A stretch of 32,917 bases of DNA from an uncultured beta proteobacterium (GTDB lineage Bacteria > Pseudomonadota > Gammaproteobacteria > Burkholderiales > Burkholderiaceae), in NCBI GenBank assembly GCA_903845455.1, contig CAIMXN010000071.1, positions 1 to 32,917 of the forward strand, written 5' to 3'. The notes under the pieces are model-generated. The model saw nothing but the letters and a program-made list of their open reading frames with translations, made no database searches and had not been told where the DNA came from. Shown piece by piece: positions 25,973 through 32,917 of this stretch. The position numbers and the translations under genes were made by a program. The stretch's first letter is position 1. Every line of letters begins with the position of its first letter.

Positions 25973-26048
25973 AATCACTGAATCTATTACTCTCTATTGT
26001 CAAGATTGAGAGTATTTGCGAGGATCTGACAGTAGTCTGGATTAGATT
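25973..26048 (+). promoter_or_regulatory. Copy 1 of dispersed promoter-like repeat (TTGAGAG-tat-TTGCGAG-N20-TAGATT)
   Basis: TTGAGAG 26006-26012, TTGCGAG 26016-26022, TAGATT 26043-26048; upstream arm AATCACTGAATCTATTACTCTC shared with copy 4. Confidence 0.7.
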
Positions 26049-26073
26049 GTTTCTGCTCAAGGTAAACATCACT

Positions 26074-26859
26074 ATGACTGCTACTATTCTCAATTTTTCA
26101 GCATTTACTCTCCTCCTACTCGTAATGATTCTCTTCATTCTTACGGGGCTAGTCATGTTATTTGTGGTGCAGAAATATTTTACTAAGCTGCATTTTTCAG
26201 GTCATGCTGAATTTGGTGAAATATTTGGCAATACGATCAGTATTATTTTTGGTTTTATCTTAGCCTTTATTACGATCTCAGTTTGGCAAAGTTACAATAA
26301 TGTAAGCGATACCCTTTCCAAAGAAGCCAATACCTTATTTAATATCTATCGAACAATTGAGGCTTATCCACCCGAGATTCGGGATGCTGGCAAAAAGCAA
26401 TTAATCATTTATGTGCATGAAGTCATTAATACCGAATGGGACTCACTAGCCAAGAGTCAATATGATCTGCGTGCATACAAAGCCCTCATGTCTTTTCATG
26501 ACTTAATCATTCACTTTGTACCAAAAAACAATGGTGAGATTGCCGCTCACCAAGAAGAGCTGAGGTTGCTGTCTAGTTATCGAGAGTTACGAAGGAATCG
26601 TGTTGAAAGTGCAAAATCGTTAATTGATCAACCTATGTGGATTGCATTGATTGCCAGTGCTGTCTTATTTTTATTCTTCTCTTCTCTATTTAAGATGAGG
26701 AGCCTGCGCATACATGCAACGATGATCACATTATTATCAATCTCGATTAGCTTAATTTTCTATTTACTACTTATTTATAACAATCCATTTATTGGTCCAA
26801 GCGCGCTTCAACCTGAACCTTTTCAAAAATTGCTTGATTATTACTGGCTGAAAACTTAA
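26074..26859 (+). CDS. DUF4239-like (bestrophin-like domain) membrane protein
   Basis: TM helices at both ends; GHAEFGEIFGNTISIIFGFILAFITISVWQSYNNVSDTLSKEANTLFNIYRTIEAYP; ATG at 26074. Confidence 0.8.
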   Translation: MTATILNFSAFTLLLLVMILFILTGLVMLFVVQKYFTKLHFSGHAEFGEIFGNTISIIFGFILAFITISVWQSYNNVSDTLSKEANTLFNIYRTIEAYPPEIRDAGKKQLIIYVHEVINTEWDSLAKSQYDLRAYKALMSFHDLIIHFVPKNNGEIAAHQEELRLLSSYRELRRNRVESAKSLIDQPMWIALIASAVLFLFFSSLFKMRSLRIHATMITLLSISISLIFYLLLIYNNPFIGPSALQPEPFQKLLDYYWLKT

Positions 26860-26949
26860 AAAAGTAAAGATCTCAAAATAACTCAATCTGCACTTAGCTG
26901 ATCACTCAAACTAGTCAAAAGAAGACGCTCAAGGTGCTCTTTAGTCGCC

Positions 26950-28356
26950 TCATTTTTCTGCTGAACCACCCAGCGCTAAATATAAATTAACACGCTGAGT
27001 AAGAGCATCCACTTTCCCTTGGCGCCAACTGATTTCACTAGTATTGGTTTTCATGATTTGCTGCTGCACCTGGCGTTGATCAATACGGCCAATCTGTAAT
27101 TCAGCATCCGTGTTTCGCATGATGCGTTTTTGCTCCTGAAGCTGTATTTCAAGTTGTTTACTCCGCTCGCGCCAGTTTGCTTCTCCAGATAATGCATTTT
27201 CAACATCATTAAACGCTGTCAAGACGGTTTTTCCGTAATTCGCTAAAGCCGCTTGTGCCTCAGCATTTTGATAAGCAATTTGCGCTTCGATGGTACCCCC
27301 TTGAAAAAGGGGGATAGCAGCATTAGCACCTAGCCCAAAGCTGGTGTTGGCTCCATTAATGAGGCTAAATATTTGGCTGTTGATGTATCCGAACCCAGCA
27401 GTCAGACTGATTTTCGGGAGTCTAGCTAGGCGCTTTTCATCGGCAAGATAGAAGGCGCTGTTTACCCTGGCTTCGGCAGCTATAACATCAGGCCTACGTT
27501 CTAGTAAGTCTGCAGGCAAGCCTGCGCTCACTGGGGCAGGGAGTGTTGGCAGGTCCGTAGTTTTGAGAGCTTGCGCTTTTGGATAACGGCCTACTAAAAC
27601 CTCAACGGCACGCAGTGCTTGATCTCTAGTCTGTGCTGCATTGAGAGCGGCATCTTTACTTTGGGCTGCGCTAATGACAGCCGCAGAGACTTCTGCCGGC
27701 GAAGATGCACCAATTCTTTCCCGAGCCTGCATCAGCTCGGCATATTTATTAGCGGCTAGTGCATTCTGATTTGCCAAGTTTGCTTGCTCTTGTAGATTGC
27801 GTGCCAGCCAGACAGATTTTGTGAGGGTAGCTATTAAAGAGAGGCGCGCTGCATCCTGATCTGCATTGATGGCTTTAGCATTTTGTTCTGCGCCTGCTAC
27901 AGAGGTTCTTACTCTTCCCCATAGATCTAATTCCCAATTAGCCCCAATGTAGTAGCCTGTTAGCCCCGAGCCATTAGAGCCCGATTTGCCACCGACATTA
28001 CCAATGGCATTTACTCCAGGATATTGCGCACCACCTGCGGCATCAATGAGTGACTCAGATTGACTACGTCTCGCAGCCATGACACGTATATCAGGATTAT
28101 TCTTGAGGGCTTCAGCAACCAATTCATTTAGTTCTGTGTCATTAAATTGTTTGAGCCAGCCATCATCAACTTGTGGTCCGTTAACATTCGTATTAACTGT
28201 AAATTGGCTTGGTATGGCAGCGCTTGGCAAAGACTTTTCTGTGAGCTCTTTACTAGTTTGAACCTTGCTAATCATGCAGGCATCAAGCAACATAGCAGCT
28301 AACAAGGCGTTCACCATCAAAGTGAAGCGGGTGGTCGTGATATTTTTGAACATCAA
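26950..28356 (-). CDS. NodT-family outer-membrane efflux lipoprotein (TolC-like)
   Basis: Lipobox LLDAC; DDGWLKQFNDTELNELVAEALKNNPDIRVMAAR; ADLLERRPDVIAAEARVNSAFYLADEKRLARLPKISLTAGFGY. Confidence 0.92.
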   Translation of the reverse strand: MMFKNITTTRFTLMVNALLAAMLLDACMISKVQTSKELTEKSLPSAAIPSQFTVNTNVNGPQVDDGWLKQFNDTELNELVAEALKNNPDIRVMAARRSQSESLIDAAGGAQYPGVNAIGNVGGKSGSNGSGLTGYYIGANWELDLWGRVRTSVAGAEQNAKAINADQDAARLSLIATLTKSVWLARNLQEQANLANQNALAANKYAELMQARERIGASSPAEVSAAVISAAQSKDAALNAAQTRDQALRAVEVLVGRYPKAQALKTTDLPTLPAPVSAGLPADLLERRPDVIAAEARVNSAFYLADEKRLARLPKISLTAGFGYINSQIFSLINGANTSFGLGANAAIPLFQGGTIEAQIAYQNAEAQAALANYGKTVLTAFNDVENALSGEANWRERSKQLEIQLQEQKRIMRNTDAELQIGRIDQRQVQQQIMKTNTSEISWRQGKVDALTQRVNLYLALGGSAEK

Positions 28357-29309
28357 TGCAGCTTAGGAATAATGTAGTTTAGTTTTGTACTAATACGTAG
28401 CATCACCTTACGAATAATGTGCAAAAACGCTAGATGATCTGTATACACTGCGCCATCGCCCACAGCTCCTGCTGGTAATAGCAACTCTGCATGACGATCA
28501 TCCATAACAAGTTTGACTGCAAAGCGGTTTGGAGTGATGTCTCTTAGGCCAGTGGTTGGTAAAGTCCCGCTCGCATTGAGTTGTCCTTGACCCTCAGCCA
28601 GAATGATTGACTCCACTTTAGCTTTGAGGATATTTCCTGGAAAGCTGGGAACATAGAACTCAGCTTCATTGCCAACTTCTATCTGGTGTAATTCATTTTG
28701 ATAGAAGAGGGCATAAATTTGCGGAGTATCTTCCATGAAAGTCATTACTGAGGCAATCGGAAAAGCTGCTACAAATGCACCAGGACGAAGTTGTACATTC
28801 ACTATGATGCCATCATTGGGAGCGCGCACGATAGTTTGGTCTAGATCATATTGCAAGCTTAGATTCTGCTCGCTCAACTCAGCCAGATCAGCTTCAGCTT
28901 TTTCTAGATCAAAGCGACTTCCTGCACCACTTTTAACGAGCGCTTGGTTTTCTTGAACCCGTAATTTCGCTAACTTGAGTTTGGCACTTACTGAGTTCAC
29001 TGCTGCCTTGTATTGAGTGGGGTCAATTTTAAAAAGAACATCCCCCTTTTTAACCCGTTGATTAACAGTGACCGGTACCTCTGTAACGCGACCTTTCACT
29101 TGACTCACAATCCCAACGGAGTTCCGAATGACTAGTACATTGCTAGAGGAAGGTGAAAAAATATTCAGAAGCAAGATCAAGGTGATCATGCCCACAACGG
29201 GGATAGTGAAAACAATAACCTTGGCAACAGTATTCCAGGGTAGCAGTTTGTACTTAAAGAAGATGAGCCAGACGATGCCGGCATAGATGCCGAGTATTAG
29301 CGCTTCCAT
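28353..29309 (-). CDS. HlyD-family membrane fusion protein (YiaV-like)
   Basis: N-terminal TM helices; VKGRVTEVPVTVNQRVKKGDVLFKIDPTQYKAAV; IVRAPNDGIIVNVQLRPGAFV. Confidence 0.88.
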   Translation of the reverse strand: MEALILGIYAGIVWLIFFKYKLLPWNTVAKVIVFTIPVVGMITLILLLNIFSPSSSNVLVIRNSVGIVSQVKGRVTEVPVTVNQRVKKGDVLFKIDPTQYKAAVNSVSAKLKLAKLRVQENQALVKSGAGSRFDLEKAEADLAELSEQNLSLQYDLDQTIVRAPNDGIIVNVQLRPGAFVAAFPIASVMTFMEDTPQIYALFYQNELHQIEVGNEAEFYVPSFPGNILKAKVESIILAEGQGQLNASGTLPTTGLRDITPNRFAVKLVMDDRHAELLLPAGAVGDGAVYTDHLAFLHIIRKVMLRISTKLNYIIPKLH

Positions 29310-29311
29310 CC

Positions 29312-29740
29312 TTATTTCACCCCATCTTGCATTTGTGTTCCTGCTTGCTTGTCTTTTTCGAGCGGCTCATATTTATCGCTCCCATAAGCAAGTTTGTACA
29401 TGGTTGGCCGGGTATATGCCCAAAGATAGGCAAAGGGCCAAAGTAGGCCTCCCACAAAAAGTGAGAGGATACAAAGCGCATGTATGGCATCTCTTTGGGG
29501 GTGTTCCCGACGCTTAGCGATGGTGTCGGGAAGAATATGGACATACCAAAAAGCTGCAATCAGGCCCACGGGCATTACGATGAGCACAAACCAAGAGAGC
29601 AGATTGGCAAAGTCGTCGATAAGATCAGGTGGTAGAAATGAAGCTCTTGCTAGGCTTGGTATGACCGCTAAAACAAGAAAAATAGGGGTAAAAAAGGTCT
29701 TTTTCATCAAATGTGGCCTCAGCTTGCGGGGTATATCCAT
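29312..29740 (-). CDS. DUF3302 membrane protein (YiaW-like)
   Basis: LLSWFVLIVMPVGLIAAFWYVHILPDTIAKRREHPQRDAIHALCILSLFVGGLLWPFAYLWAYTRP; adjacent to YiaV-like HlyD. Start may be internal (MKKTFF). Confidence 0.75.
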   Translation of the reverse strand: MDIPRKLRPHLMKKTFFTPIFLVLAVIPSLARASFLPPDLIDDFANLLSWFVLIVMPVGLIAAFWYVHILPDTIAKRREHPQRDAIHALCILSLFVGGLLWPFAYLWAYTRPTMYKLAYGSDKYEPLEKDKQAGTQMQDGVK

Positions 29741-29969
29741 TTTAATAATTGGCTCATCAAAAGAAGGGTAATTATTCCAATCCCCTTTTTCGTACTGAAA
29801 TTTATCACAGATTGACTGCGTCAGTAGCTTGTATGGAAATCCCTAATGTTTGTGCTGATGGTCTTAATACTTATGTGGTAAAAAATAGGATTAGCAGTCA
29901 TCAATTCTAGATTTAACTTAAAGTAGTACGGCATTTCTTTCCCGGATTTTTAAAATAATAAGGAGCATC

Positions 29970-30569
29970 ATGAAAAAAATTATTCTTCCTATCACTACTG
30001 CTATGCTTGTATTGCCATGTTTAGCTATGGCTCAAAATGCACCTCAAGGTGCCACAATCGTAGCCAAAGCGCCAGGTGAAGTTGCTGTAGCTGATGCTAT
30101 GCAAATTCAAGGCAAAATCAAATTAATTGATAAGCAAAATCGTAGCGTAGTAGTTGTGGGTCCACAAGGTAATGAGGTTGCACTTACCTTAGGGCCACAA
30201 AGCAGAAATTTCGACCAAATTAAAGTGGGTGATTTGGTAACGCTTACCTATGTTCAAGCCTTGGCTTTAGACCTGCATAAGTCAGTTAATGGCGGTAAGC
30301 TGGGTCAACCCATTGTTTCTGAGCAAGCAGTGCGTGCTGCTCCTGGCAATAAACCAGCTGGCGCAGTTGAAAGAACGGTGAGTCTGACTGCCAATGTTAT
30401 GAAAGTTGATCAAAAAAATCAAATCGTTACTTTAAAAGGACCTAATCGTACGGTCGAGCTTAAGGTGAAGGATCCTGCAATCCTGCAGAAGGTTAAAGTA
30501 GGCGATCAAGTCGACGCTACCTTTACTGAGGCAATCGCTATTGAAGTTACTGCTGCTCCAGCAAAATAA
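29970..30569 (+). CDS. Secreted protein with two tandem homologous beta-rich units, function unknown
   Basis: Signal peptide MKKIILPITTAMLVLPCLAMA; two similar segments (IKLIDKQNRSVVVVGPQG...KVGDLVTLTYVQALALDL and VMKVDQKNQIVTLKGPN...KVGDQVDATFTEAIAIEV). Confidence 0.75.
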   Translation: MKKIILPITTAMLVLPCLAMAQNAPQGATIVAKAPGEVAVADAMQIQGKIKLIDKQNRSVVVVGPQGNEVALTLGPQSRNFDQIKVGDLVTLTYVQALALDLHKSVNGGKLGQPIVSEQAVRAAPGNKPAGAVERTVSLTANVMKVDQKNQIVTLKGPNRTVELKVKDPAILQKVKVGDQVDATFTEAIAIEVTAAPAK

Positions 30570-30582
30570 AGTATTTCAATAA

Positions 30583-30613
30583 AAATGGCCCGATGTAAAT
30601 CATCGGGCCATTT
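30583..30613. terminator. Bidirectional Rho-independent terminator between convergent genes
   Basis: AAATGGCCCGATG-taaat-CATCGGGCCATTT: perfect 13-bp stem, 5-nt loop; A-rich/T-rich flanks. Confidence 0.85.
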
Positions 30614-30633
30614 GAAGTCCTTAGATTAGTGAC

Positions 30634-30921
30634 TTATTCCCACTTGCCACCACCGGTAGAGTAACCAGCGGCCAAGGCTGCAATGAATTCGCTCTGAGAT
30701 ATAGAGCCATCGCCATTAACGTCAATCTTTTTAAATGTCTTATCCGACATTCCGGCTGCCTTAGCCTCTGCTGCAGTAATGGTGCCACTACCATCTTTAT
30801 CGATAGCGTTAAATTGCGCAATTGCAGCTGCAGCTTTTGGATCTACAGCTGGCTTTTGCTGTGCAAAGCCAGTAATCGGTAATAAACACAATAAGACTGT
30901 TGCGATCTTGATGAATTTCAT
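30634..30921 (-). CDS. Secreted EF-hand protein
   Basis: Signal peptide MKFIKIATVLLCLLPITGFAQQ; DKDGSGTITAAE and DVNGDGSISQSE loops. Confidence 0.85.
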   Translation of the reverse strand: MKFIKIATVLLCLLPITGFAQQKPAVDPKAAAAIAQFNAIDKDGSGTITAAEAKAAGMSDKTFKKIDVNGDGSISQSEFIAALAAGYSTGGGKWE

Positions 30922-31145
30922 TTTTTGTCTTCCAGTTAATTATTTTTAAAACCCTTAAGAGGGATGCACCACAAGCGCAGCTAACATCAAAATAACAGAA
31001 GTAACTTCCGCAATAGAATGCCAACTAATCAATAGCAGTCATTTGTAGCCATTACCCCTTTTTTTAATTAGGGTTTTCACTATCTGGGAGTAGTCAAAGC
31101 ATATCCCTGAGCTTAAATCCTTTTCTATGCTCTATATTTAGAGGA

Positions 31146-31188
31146 TTGAGAGCTATTGCGAGAATCTGGCAGTAGGCTGTTTTACATT
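31146..31188 (+). promoter_or_regulatory. Copy 2 of dispersed promoter-like repeat (TTGAGAG-cta-TTGCGAG-N20-TACATT)
   Basis: TTGAGAG 31146-31152, TTGCGAG 31156-31162, TACATT 31183-31188. Confidence 0.7.
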
Positions 31189-31345
31189 CGTTTAAAGCTT
31201 ACTTTGTTGTTTATGAAGGGTACTCAACAAGGATGGGTAGAGTTCCCCAGCGCATTTAACAGCAGTTTGCAGATTCCATCTGATTTTTAAGATATTTGGG
31301 GTCAAGTGATTTTAAGATTTTAATTACATCATTAGGAGAAATATC

Positions 31346-31657
31346 GTGAATATCAATTCTGGTATCAATCAGTTGAATAACAAATTCGCTACATACGTCA
31401 CTATTGGCTTTGGAACAATGTGGTGCCTCTACGTCTTTCTAGTCTTTTCACTTTTGCCAATTTTTGCCCCGCAGTTGGAACATGTTGCCTTATATATCAG
31501 TAATTGTGTTCAGCTAGTTGCCTTGCCAGCGCTCATGGTTGGCAATGCGATTTTAGCCAAAGGAGCAGCAGAACAAGCTGAACAAGATCACAATGTGCTC
31601 AAAGAATTATTGGACGATATGCGCGAAGAGTTGGTGATATTAAAAAAACTAACTTGA
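31346..31657 (+). CDS. Small membrane protein with coiled-coil C-terminus, unknown function
   Basis: GTG start after AGGAGAAATATC; two hydrophobic segments, then EQAEQDHNVLKELLDDMREELVILKKLT. Confidence 0.65.
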   Translation: MNINSGINQLNNKFATYVTIGFGTMWCLYVFLVFSLLPIFAPQLEHVALYISNCVQLVALPALMVGNAILAKGAAEQAEQDHNVLKELLDDMREELVILKKLT

Positions 31658-31728
31658 ACTTTAAATTCACTGAACAGTCATCACACAAATCAGAATAGTT
31701 TTCTCCTAAAAGAGATATAAAAGGAACT

Positions 31729-32034
31729 ATGAAAATATCAAAAATTTTGATTGTTGTGATTATGTTGGTAATCGTGACCTATTTTTTTGCGAGTCGAACG
31801 AAGAGTGGTTCTGGACCAAACCAAGCTAAAGCCAGTTGGTTTTCTAAGCTTGATGCTAATGGTGATGGAACATTATCACCAGAAGAGCTAAAGGCAATTG
31901 ATGCCAATGGTGATGGAAAGATATCTGCCGCAGAGGCTAAAGCCTATGGCATACCTGATGCAGAATTTATCAAATGGGATAAAAATGGGGACGGATATAT
32001 TTCTCAAGAAGAGATGAAGACGTACGGCGGTTAA
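31729..32034 (+). CDS. Membrane-anchored/secreted EF-hand protein with three loops
   Basis: N-terminal TM; DANGDGTLSPEE, DANGDGKISAAE, DKNGDGYISQEE; RBS AAAGGAACT. Confidence 0.85.
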   Translation: MKISKILIVVIMLVIVTYFFASRTKSGSGPNQAKASWFSKLDANGDGTLSPEELKAIDANGDGKISAAEAKAYGIPDAEFIKWDKNGDGYISQEEMKTYGG

Positions 32035-32087
32035 GATTTTTTCAAAAATAGTGCTGCAATGAGCTACATATAGCTTAATTTCAAGTA

Positions 32088-32130
32088 TTGAGAGCTATTG
32101 TGAGGAATTTCATGTAGATATCGTTACATT
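32088..32130 (+). promoter_or_regulatory. Copy 3 of dispersed promoter-like repeat (TTGAGAG-cta-TTGTGAG-N20-TACATT)
   Basis: TTGAGAG 32088-32094, TTGTGAG 32098-32104, TACATT 32125-32130. Confidence 0.7.
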
Positions 32131-32273
32131 ATTAATGAAGAAAACTCCCCCTTGGGCTTATATGTAATTAAGTGCCTTAGTTGAGAATTTAATGTAGTAA
32201 AGTGCATTAGGGTTCAGGTTTCGGGATCTTTCTTACCTTGTGGATCAATAAATAATATAAGAGTGGAGCAGAC

Positions 32274-32549
32274 ATGAATAAAGCAATTCTTGCAGGATTA
32301 CTAGTACTAGGTTTTTCAGTTGCGGCATATGCCCAGCAGGCTACAACACCTCCAACAGCAGCCAAACCTGCACCAGTGCAAGCCAAAAAATATAACTTCA
32401 AAGCAATCGATGCGGATGGTGATGGAAAAATTACCAGGGCTGAAGCAAAAAAATATGGCATCAGCGATGCTGAATTTAAGATATACGACAAAGATAATAG
32501 CGGTTTTATTACTATAAACGAGGTATCGAACGAAGCTTGGAGCATGTAA
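32274..32549 (+). CDS. Secreted EF-hand protein
   Basis: Signal peptide MNKAILAGLLVLGFSVAAYAQQ; DADGDGKITRAE and DKDNSGFITINE loops; RBS AGTGGAG. Confidence 0.85.
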   Translation: MNKAILAGLLVLGFSVAAYAQQATTPPTAAKPAPVQAKKYNFKAIDADGDGKITRAEAKKYGISDAEFKIYDKDNSGFITINEVSNEAWSM

Positions 32550-32589
32550 TTCATGCCCTCATAAAAAACTAGCTTAGTGGAGTGACCCC

Positions 32590-32632
32590 CAAAAGTTGGA
32601 CAACATGTCTAACCAAGGGGGTTTTTTTATGG
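32590..32632 (+). terminator. Terminator-like hairpin with T7 tract, also resembling the left end of an IS3-family element
   Basis: CCCCC-aaaa-GTTGGACA-aca-TGTCTAAC-caa-GGGGG-TTTTTTT (one G-T wobble in inner stem). Confidence 0.55.
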
Positions 32633-32743
32633 GCAAATGATTTGGATTGAAGGGCGCCTGCCAAGATCACTTAGGGTCGCTCAGCGGCCAAAAATAGACA
32701 TCTTATAAAGCATTTCTCTGTCGGAATTGGTGGACATTCAAGT

Positions 32744-32820
32744 AATCACTAAGTCTATTTCTCTCCACTCCAAAAAATTGAGAGCTATTGCTAGGAATTT
32801 TAAGTGCTTTATACTAAATT
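32744..32820 (+). promoter_or_regulatory. Copy 4 of dispersed promoter-like repeat (TTGAGAG-cta-TTGCTAG-N20-TAAATT)
   Basis: TTGAGAG 32778-32784, TTGCTAG 32788-32794, TAAATT 32815-32820; upstream arm AATCACTAAGTCTATTTCTCTC matches copy 1. Confidence 0.65.
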
Positions 32821-32917
32821 CTCACCCAAGAAAACTCATCCTGCAGATCAATAGTTAGTCAGTGCCTCGCCTGAGATTTCGAATAAACAAAAAAACAGGG
32901 TATAGGCATCAGAAATC

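Follow-up and report, generated by a model that had tools for sequence, protein, structure and literature searches.

A species-restricted direct-repeat promoter element before EF-hand and envelope genes in an uncultured Burkholderiaceae bacterium, and its candidate OmpR/PhoB-type regulator

Several described systems resemble parts of what we report here. OmpR binds two tandem 10-bp half-sites (PMC7380067). In the PhoP regulon of enteric bacteria, orthologous genes gain or lose OmpR-family control between related species (PMC2650801), and in switched intergenic regions, also described as horizontal regulatory transfer, a non-homologous sequence replaces the upstream region of a gene, locus by locus between strains (PMC5890482). 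In this work we analysed a 32,917-nucleotide stretch of DNA (the window; contig CAIMXN010000071.1 of assembly GCA_903845455.1) from an uncultured beta proteobacterium of the Burkholderiaceae, which carries four copies of a promoter-like element, TTGNGAG-N3-TTGNNAG-N20-TANATT, hereafter the class A element. Like the promoters of OmpR, PhoB and BasR/PmrA, class A has a head-to-tail direct repeat, one helical turn apart, over a class II -35 region; unlike them, it uses the heptamer TTGAGAG/TTGNGAG and keeps a strict 20-bp gap to the -10. The period of the PhoB box is 11 bp, and the class A heptamer sequence was not found in the literature searched.

The evolutionary likenesses are also partial. 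As in PhoP rewiring, the control of orthologous genes by an OmpR-family regulator would change between species; there, however, the regulator is ancestral and shared, whereas in this species several orthologous units have exchanged their promoter block for one new class. Class A resembles switched regions in the non-homologous replacement upstream of an orthologous gene, and differs from them in that the same new promoter stands at several unlinked loci in one species. With REPIN-type and other intragenomic sequence populations it shares multiplication of a family within one genome (PMC8049555), but class A is promoter-sized, gene-oriented and conserved only at promoter/operator positions. The layout itself is familiar, and precedents exist for both single-gene rewiring (PMC2650801) and the switching of intergenic regions (PMC5890482). 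The unusual feature is a set, specific to one species, of several unlinked orthologous units that have passed to a single unrelated promoter class, with a regulator unseen in the species that carry the former class. The literature searched on this genus held nothing relevant on EF-hand proteins or two-component systems.

Class A in the window, the genome and the genus

The strict 43-base pattern matches the window at four sites, all on the + strand and without mismatch, against 0.07 expected. When up to two mismatches are allowed, the same four sites are still the only ones, and none of 100 shuffles reaches four. The four sites proposed by the sequence-only reading are confirmed, with both coordinates and spacing as first written (Table 1).

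The genome (G000; the window is its contig C71) is a draft of 311 contigs, 83.7% complete, whose gene content and genome size suggest the genus Polynucleobacter. Throughout it, the strict pattern with up to two mismatches gives 14 matches versus 0 for reversed-pattern controls. A 48-bp model built from 12 copies (model R1) also gives 14 contig matches, at 40.5-50.8 bits; the next best, at 17.3 bits, is a copy cut by the end of contig C58, before another EF-hand gene. After removal of assembly duplicates (C289 equals C42, and 141 bases at the end of C125 are also found at the end of C71), 12 distinct strong copies and the truncated C58 copy remain. TANATT lies exactly 20 bp past the second heptamer in 13 of the 14 strong matches, while C255 has TGAATT. 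All strong copies are intergenic, as the sequence-only reading had noted for the four sites in the window, and the EF-hand theme first seen in the window extends beyond it (twice on C151 and once on C58). Contig C103 holds three extra one-mismatch class A sites (P ~0.003).

Outside this species the element is lost from view. The strict pattern with up to two mismatches gives 5 matches in total in 185 other genomes of the same genus, about the level of the reversed-pattern control, and in GTDB r220 (85,462 species) there is a single exact match, which lies inside a Limnohabitans coding sequence and which we judge to be chance. Viral contigs contain no class A element, and it is absent upstream of bestrophin-like homologs (39-51% identity) in other species. 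The class A element is confined to the window's species.

A candidate OmpR/PhoB-type regulator

The conservation among copies is uneven along the element. Specifically, the pairwise identity is 0.91 in the first heptamer, 1.0 in the TTG and AG of the second heptamer and 0.88 in TANATT, and falls to 0.39 at the two middle bases of the second heptamer, 0.54 in the spacer and 0.28-0.37 in the flanks. High values at the heptamers and the -10, with background in the flanks, indicate a functional profile and not a neutral repeat; the even conservation with sharp ends of the latter was not seen, as values within the core drop from 1.0 to 0.39 from one base to the next. Only at an offset of 10 is the second heptamer similar to the first (5.45 of 7, with 2.83 for the next best offset; P 6.5e-5), and the two form a direct, not inverted, repeat with a 10-bp period. 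This repeat occupies the -35 region at a fixed distance to the -10, with no TTGACA-type -35 at 17 bp. Taking TANATT as the -10 places its centre near -41, which is the class II activator position. Generic promoter matches in the region (sigma-70 with a standard -35 test) are not above shuffles, and the aligned copies contain no invariant GG-N10-GC, the sigma-54 signature.

We regard class A as probably a class II operator-promoter for an envelope/EF-hand set, run by an OmpR/PhoB-family regulator that is most likely the one encoded on C103. Only two OmpR-type regulators were found in the genome, a PhoB-like protein on C76 and the orphan on C103. The latter (Response_reg PF00072, 4.5e-25; Trans_reg_C PF00486, 2.7e-9) adjoins a histidine kinase comprised of HisKA, HATPase and a 7TMR-DISM sensor; its nearest solved relative by sequence is BaeR, and over the full length BasR. 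Orthologs occur in G166, G011, G056 and G088, and the five proteins hardly differ in the recognition-helix region (ISRLRKK and adjoining residues).

In G166, G011 and G056 a TGAGAG-N4-TGAGAG repeat stands in the intergenic region directly preceding the operon of the kinase and regulator; these are the three ortholog loci whose upstream region can be read, the G088 contig starting inside the kinase gene. The repeat has the form TGAGAGGAA-[CG]TGAGAGGAA, one letter off in G166 (NTGAGAGGAA-GTGAGAGGAA in G011 and G056, TTAAGAGGAA-CTGAGAGGAA in G166), lies 1969-1975 bp from the regulator gene, points away from the kinase and keeps the 10-bp period. C103 itself carries TTGAGAGTATTTGGGTG at the equivalent place and orientation. 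With one mismatch allowed, such a repeat has a background of 3 per 201,602 bases, and it is missing at the operons of regulators with 37-43% identity. The repeat at the ortholog loci is the strongest link between element and regulator and played no part in finding the element; it lends support to the OmpR/PhoB-type layout suggested earlier. Conservation of the spacing in related genomes, which had also been anticipated, is found at the regulator's own locus only, the target genes showing none. The repeat is not multiplied in the 19% of the G166 genome that was sampled (0 exact matches; with one mismatch, 5 versus 5 in controls). Next to the operon in the three relatives (L152, L153 and L154) lie divergent genes for surface proteins: a YadA-like adhesin, a CsgG-containing cluster and an autotransporter.

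We infer binding, activation rather than repression, a start site and a signal. The neighbouring 7TMR-DISM histidine kinase would phosphorylate the C103 regulator, a dimer of which would bind in head-to-tail orientation to the heptamers (NTGAGAG-N3-NTGNGAG), which are spaced by one helical turn and centred near -41. The bound regulator would replace the missing -35 and recruit sigma-70 RNA polymerase to the TANATT -10, and transcription would start ~7 bp past it. The predicted products are small proteins of the envelope and periplasm, namely EF-hand proteins, a bestrophin-like channel, UPF0114, a cupin, a cytochrome-like protein and a PAS protein.

Several observations weigh against this assignment. 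The identity to the regulator orthologs is low (48-51%). The regulator-locus sites in the own genome are degenerate, with no good -10 at N20 (AAAAGA, GGGTTA), and class A and the ortholog-locus sites are alike only in the heptamers and the GAA after them, so that model R1 gives no match at those sites. One strong copy faces a convergent gene. Additionally, with the genome 83.7% complete, another regulator may be missing.

It is unlikely, in our estimate, that another DNA-binding protein spanning two major grooves (PhoB, NarL-type or AraC-type) binds the element and that the C103 link is coincidental. A centre near -41 and the missing -35 would suit any class II activator, and the degenerate C103-locus sites fit this explanation; against it, the same 10-bp-period repeat is present at all three readable ortholog operons, and the PhoB-like regulator, unlike the element, occurs throughout the genus. 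We give still less credence to a mobile or duplicated promoter repeat, spread by copying and constitutive, without a dedicated regulator. The information of >40 bits per copy exceeds that of a typical binding site, several copies share the leader behind the promoter as well, and the copy facing a convergent gene is easily accommodated, but conservation follows function and drops to background in the flanks, and other species have the heptamers at their regulator locus; copying may still explain the spread. An alternative-sigma promoter, which the sequence-only reading had allowed, is weakened by the finding of only three sigma-70-family proteins, of which a single one (C217) resembles the extracytoplasmic function (ECF) type. 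An ECF promoter with its -35 in GAGGAAYTT is very improbable: GGAACTT in some copies resembles ECF -35 boxes, yet those positions vary (0.3-1.1 bits, one A excepted), in contrast to the invariant bases farther upstream, and no invariant GGAAC-type -35 was found at 16-17 bp from the -10. Chance recurrence is refuted by the counts given above for the window (0.07 expected) and the genome (14 versus 0), and its probability is practically nil.

Replacement of an unrelated promoter class

Orthologs of the EF-hand protein encoded at 32274 (69-77% identity) are found in G099, G113, G181 (two copies) and G197, and all of them have at the equivalent place a different conserved block, ACCCTAGGTTT...AAATANCCCATAAA...TTTGACC-N17-CATTCT, also written ACCCTAGGTTT...CCCATAAA...TTTGACC-N17-CATTCT and here termed class T. 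The same class precedes orthologs of the 31729 EF-hand protein (G099, G170), of the C42 cupin (G108, G177) and of the C151 CxxCH protein (G119 and, behind an EF-hand gene, G099). A class T model matches clearly in 17 genomes of the genus, where the promoter precedes EF-hand, cupin, cytochrome-like and other genes; besides the own genome these are G099, G050, G106, G108, G001, G113, G082, G119, G121, G070, G083, G170, G177, G181, G190 and G197. Class T promoters have no 10-bp direct repeat. In contrast to the PhoP case, the 16 other class T genomes lack a close copy of the C103 regulator, none encoding a regulator of this type with >41% identity. Class A has replaced class T before orthologous EF-hand, cupin and cytochrome-like genes in this lineage.

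The class A block cannot be aligned to class T at the EF-hand locus (z 0.3, -1.7, 0.4 and 0.7), while the leader behind the promoter is clearly homologous (z 27.6, 18.5, 3.9 and 12.2). An origin of class A as mutated class T is therefore rejected at this locus. The cupin locus keeps a weak residual similarity between the two classes (z 2.2 and 3.4, P 0.04 and 0.01), so a gradual origin is possible there. Over its first 63 nt the leader is kept behind both promoter classes and among paralogs, and this module also occurs across species at L107, L163, L216, L217, L251 and L257. That homology begins behind TANATT while the promoter part is not homologous fits a start site at that point. The module contains a dyad, CTTAAT-N4-ATTAAG, and a GCCTGAGATTTCGAAT end. 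The dyad was considered as an RNA hairpin and rejected, since RNAalifold predicts none, the named pairs are no better than shuffles and covariation is absent; the leader has no Rfam match either. The dyad may instead be a DNA operator, for a repressor.

There is an even chance, in our view, that in this lineage a two-component system's own operator was multiplied and fitted before several unlinked genes of an already existing envelope set, displacing class T, still in use in sister species, and keeping at least one old leader, so that the set was captured one promoter at a time; we infer spread by copying rather than sites evolving one by one. For a group of secreted EF-hand proteins in small, regulator-poor genomes, the data point to a candidate regulator together with its site and targets. 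They also provide a natural example of a gene set changing control, in which sister species represent the 'before' state and, at the best-studied locus, the promoter is swapped and the leader kept, and so make a general question of bacterial regulatory evolution directly testable.

Feature positions and surroundings

Table 1 Features of the window and further promoter copies in the genome (window positions without prefix; others as contig:position).
Feature	Position	Strand	Evidence or remarks
Class A element	26006..26048	+	TTGAGAG-N3-TTGCGAG-N20-TAGATT; exact match, 40.6 bits (model R1); downstream: bestrophin-like gene
Bestrophin-like membrane protein gene (PF14023, formerly DUF4239)	26074..26859	+	Pfam 1.5e-46; starts 25 bp past -10
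EF-hand protein gene	30634..30921	-	behind possible decayed class T promoter
Possible decayed class T promoter	31015..31074	-	ACCCTAA...ATGACT-N16-CATTCT; pattern scan, weak (no match with model R2)
Class A element	31146..31188	+	TTGAGAG-N3-TTGCGAG-N20-TACATT; exact match, 44.5 bits (model R1); downstream: small membrane protein and EF-hand protein
Small membrane protein, 103 amino acids, GTG start	31346..31657	+	open reading frame; 0 Pfam families
EF-hand protein, 101 amino acids	31729..32034	+	Pfam; class T before orthologs
Class A element	32088..32130	+	TTGAGAG-N3-TTGTGAG-N20-TACATT; exact match, 41.6 bits (model R1); downstream: EF-hand protein
Conserved 5' leader module, ~63 nt	32131..32193	+	alignments; homologous to sister-species leaders
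Secreted EF-hand protein, 91 amino acids	32274..32549	+	Pfam; class T before orthologs
Class A element	32778..32820	+	TTGAGAG-N3-TTGCTAG-N20-TAAATT; exact match, 42.3 bits (model R1); runs into contig end, as does the C125 copy
Leader module of 32778 element	32821..32917	+	alignments; runs off contig end
Class A copy	C42:13061		downstream: cupin (Pfam score below curated cut-off)
Class A copy	C130:6594		downstream: UPF0114
Class A copy	C151:3301		downstream: EF-hand protein
Class A copy	C151:3934		downstream: EF-hand protein and CxxCH protein (cytochrome-like, no Pfam family)
Class A copy	C273		downstream: PAS protein
Class A copy	C306		downstream: small secreted protein
Class A copy	C255		downstream: solute-receptor gene, 430 bp off
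Class A copy	C42:13890 = C289:236		strong; faces convergent gene
Weaker class A copy	C130:11674		before paralog of C306 product
Weaker class A copy	C103:18776		before cysD; TAAGAT at N20
Class T promoter	C57:5264		own genome
Class T promoter	C195:75		own genome
Class T promoter	C261:1060		own genome

The possible decayed class T promoter in the window faces away from the 31146 element, and the likely G099 ortholog of the EF-hand gene behind it has a clear class T promoter in front. On the regulator contig, C103:1-20000 also carries an EF-hand gene, an acetolactate decarboxylase, a family-3 solute-binding protein and cysDN.

The fourth site, noted earlier as lying near the window edge, is exact. 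Window positions 32777-32917 equal C125:1-141, so that 141 bases starting exactly at the motif are common to both contig ends; since the site opens this shared stretch, its target gene lies outside the window. The sharing may reflect either a genomic repeat or variation between strains at that point. The C125 side of the stretch carries phage-like genes, judged by eye to be holin-like and endolysin-like. Near the fourth site, at ~32585-32610, the window contains TGACCCCCAAAAGTTGGACA, which we take to resemble the terminus of an IS3-type insertion sequence.

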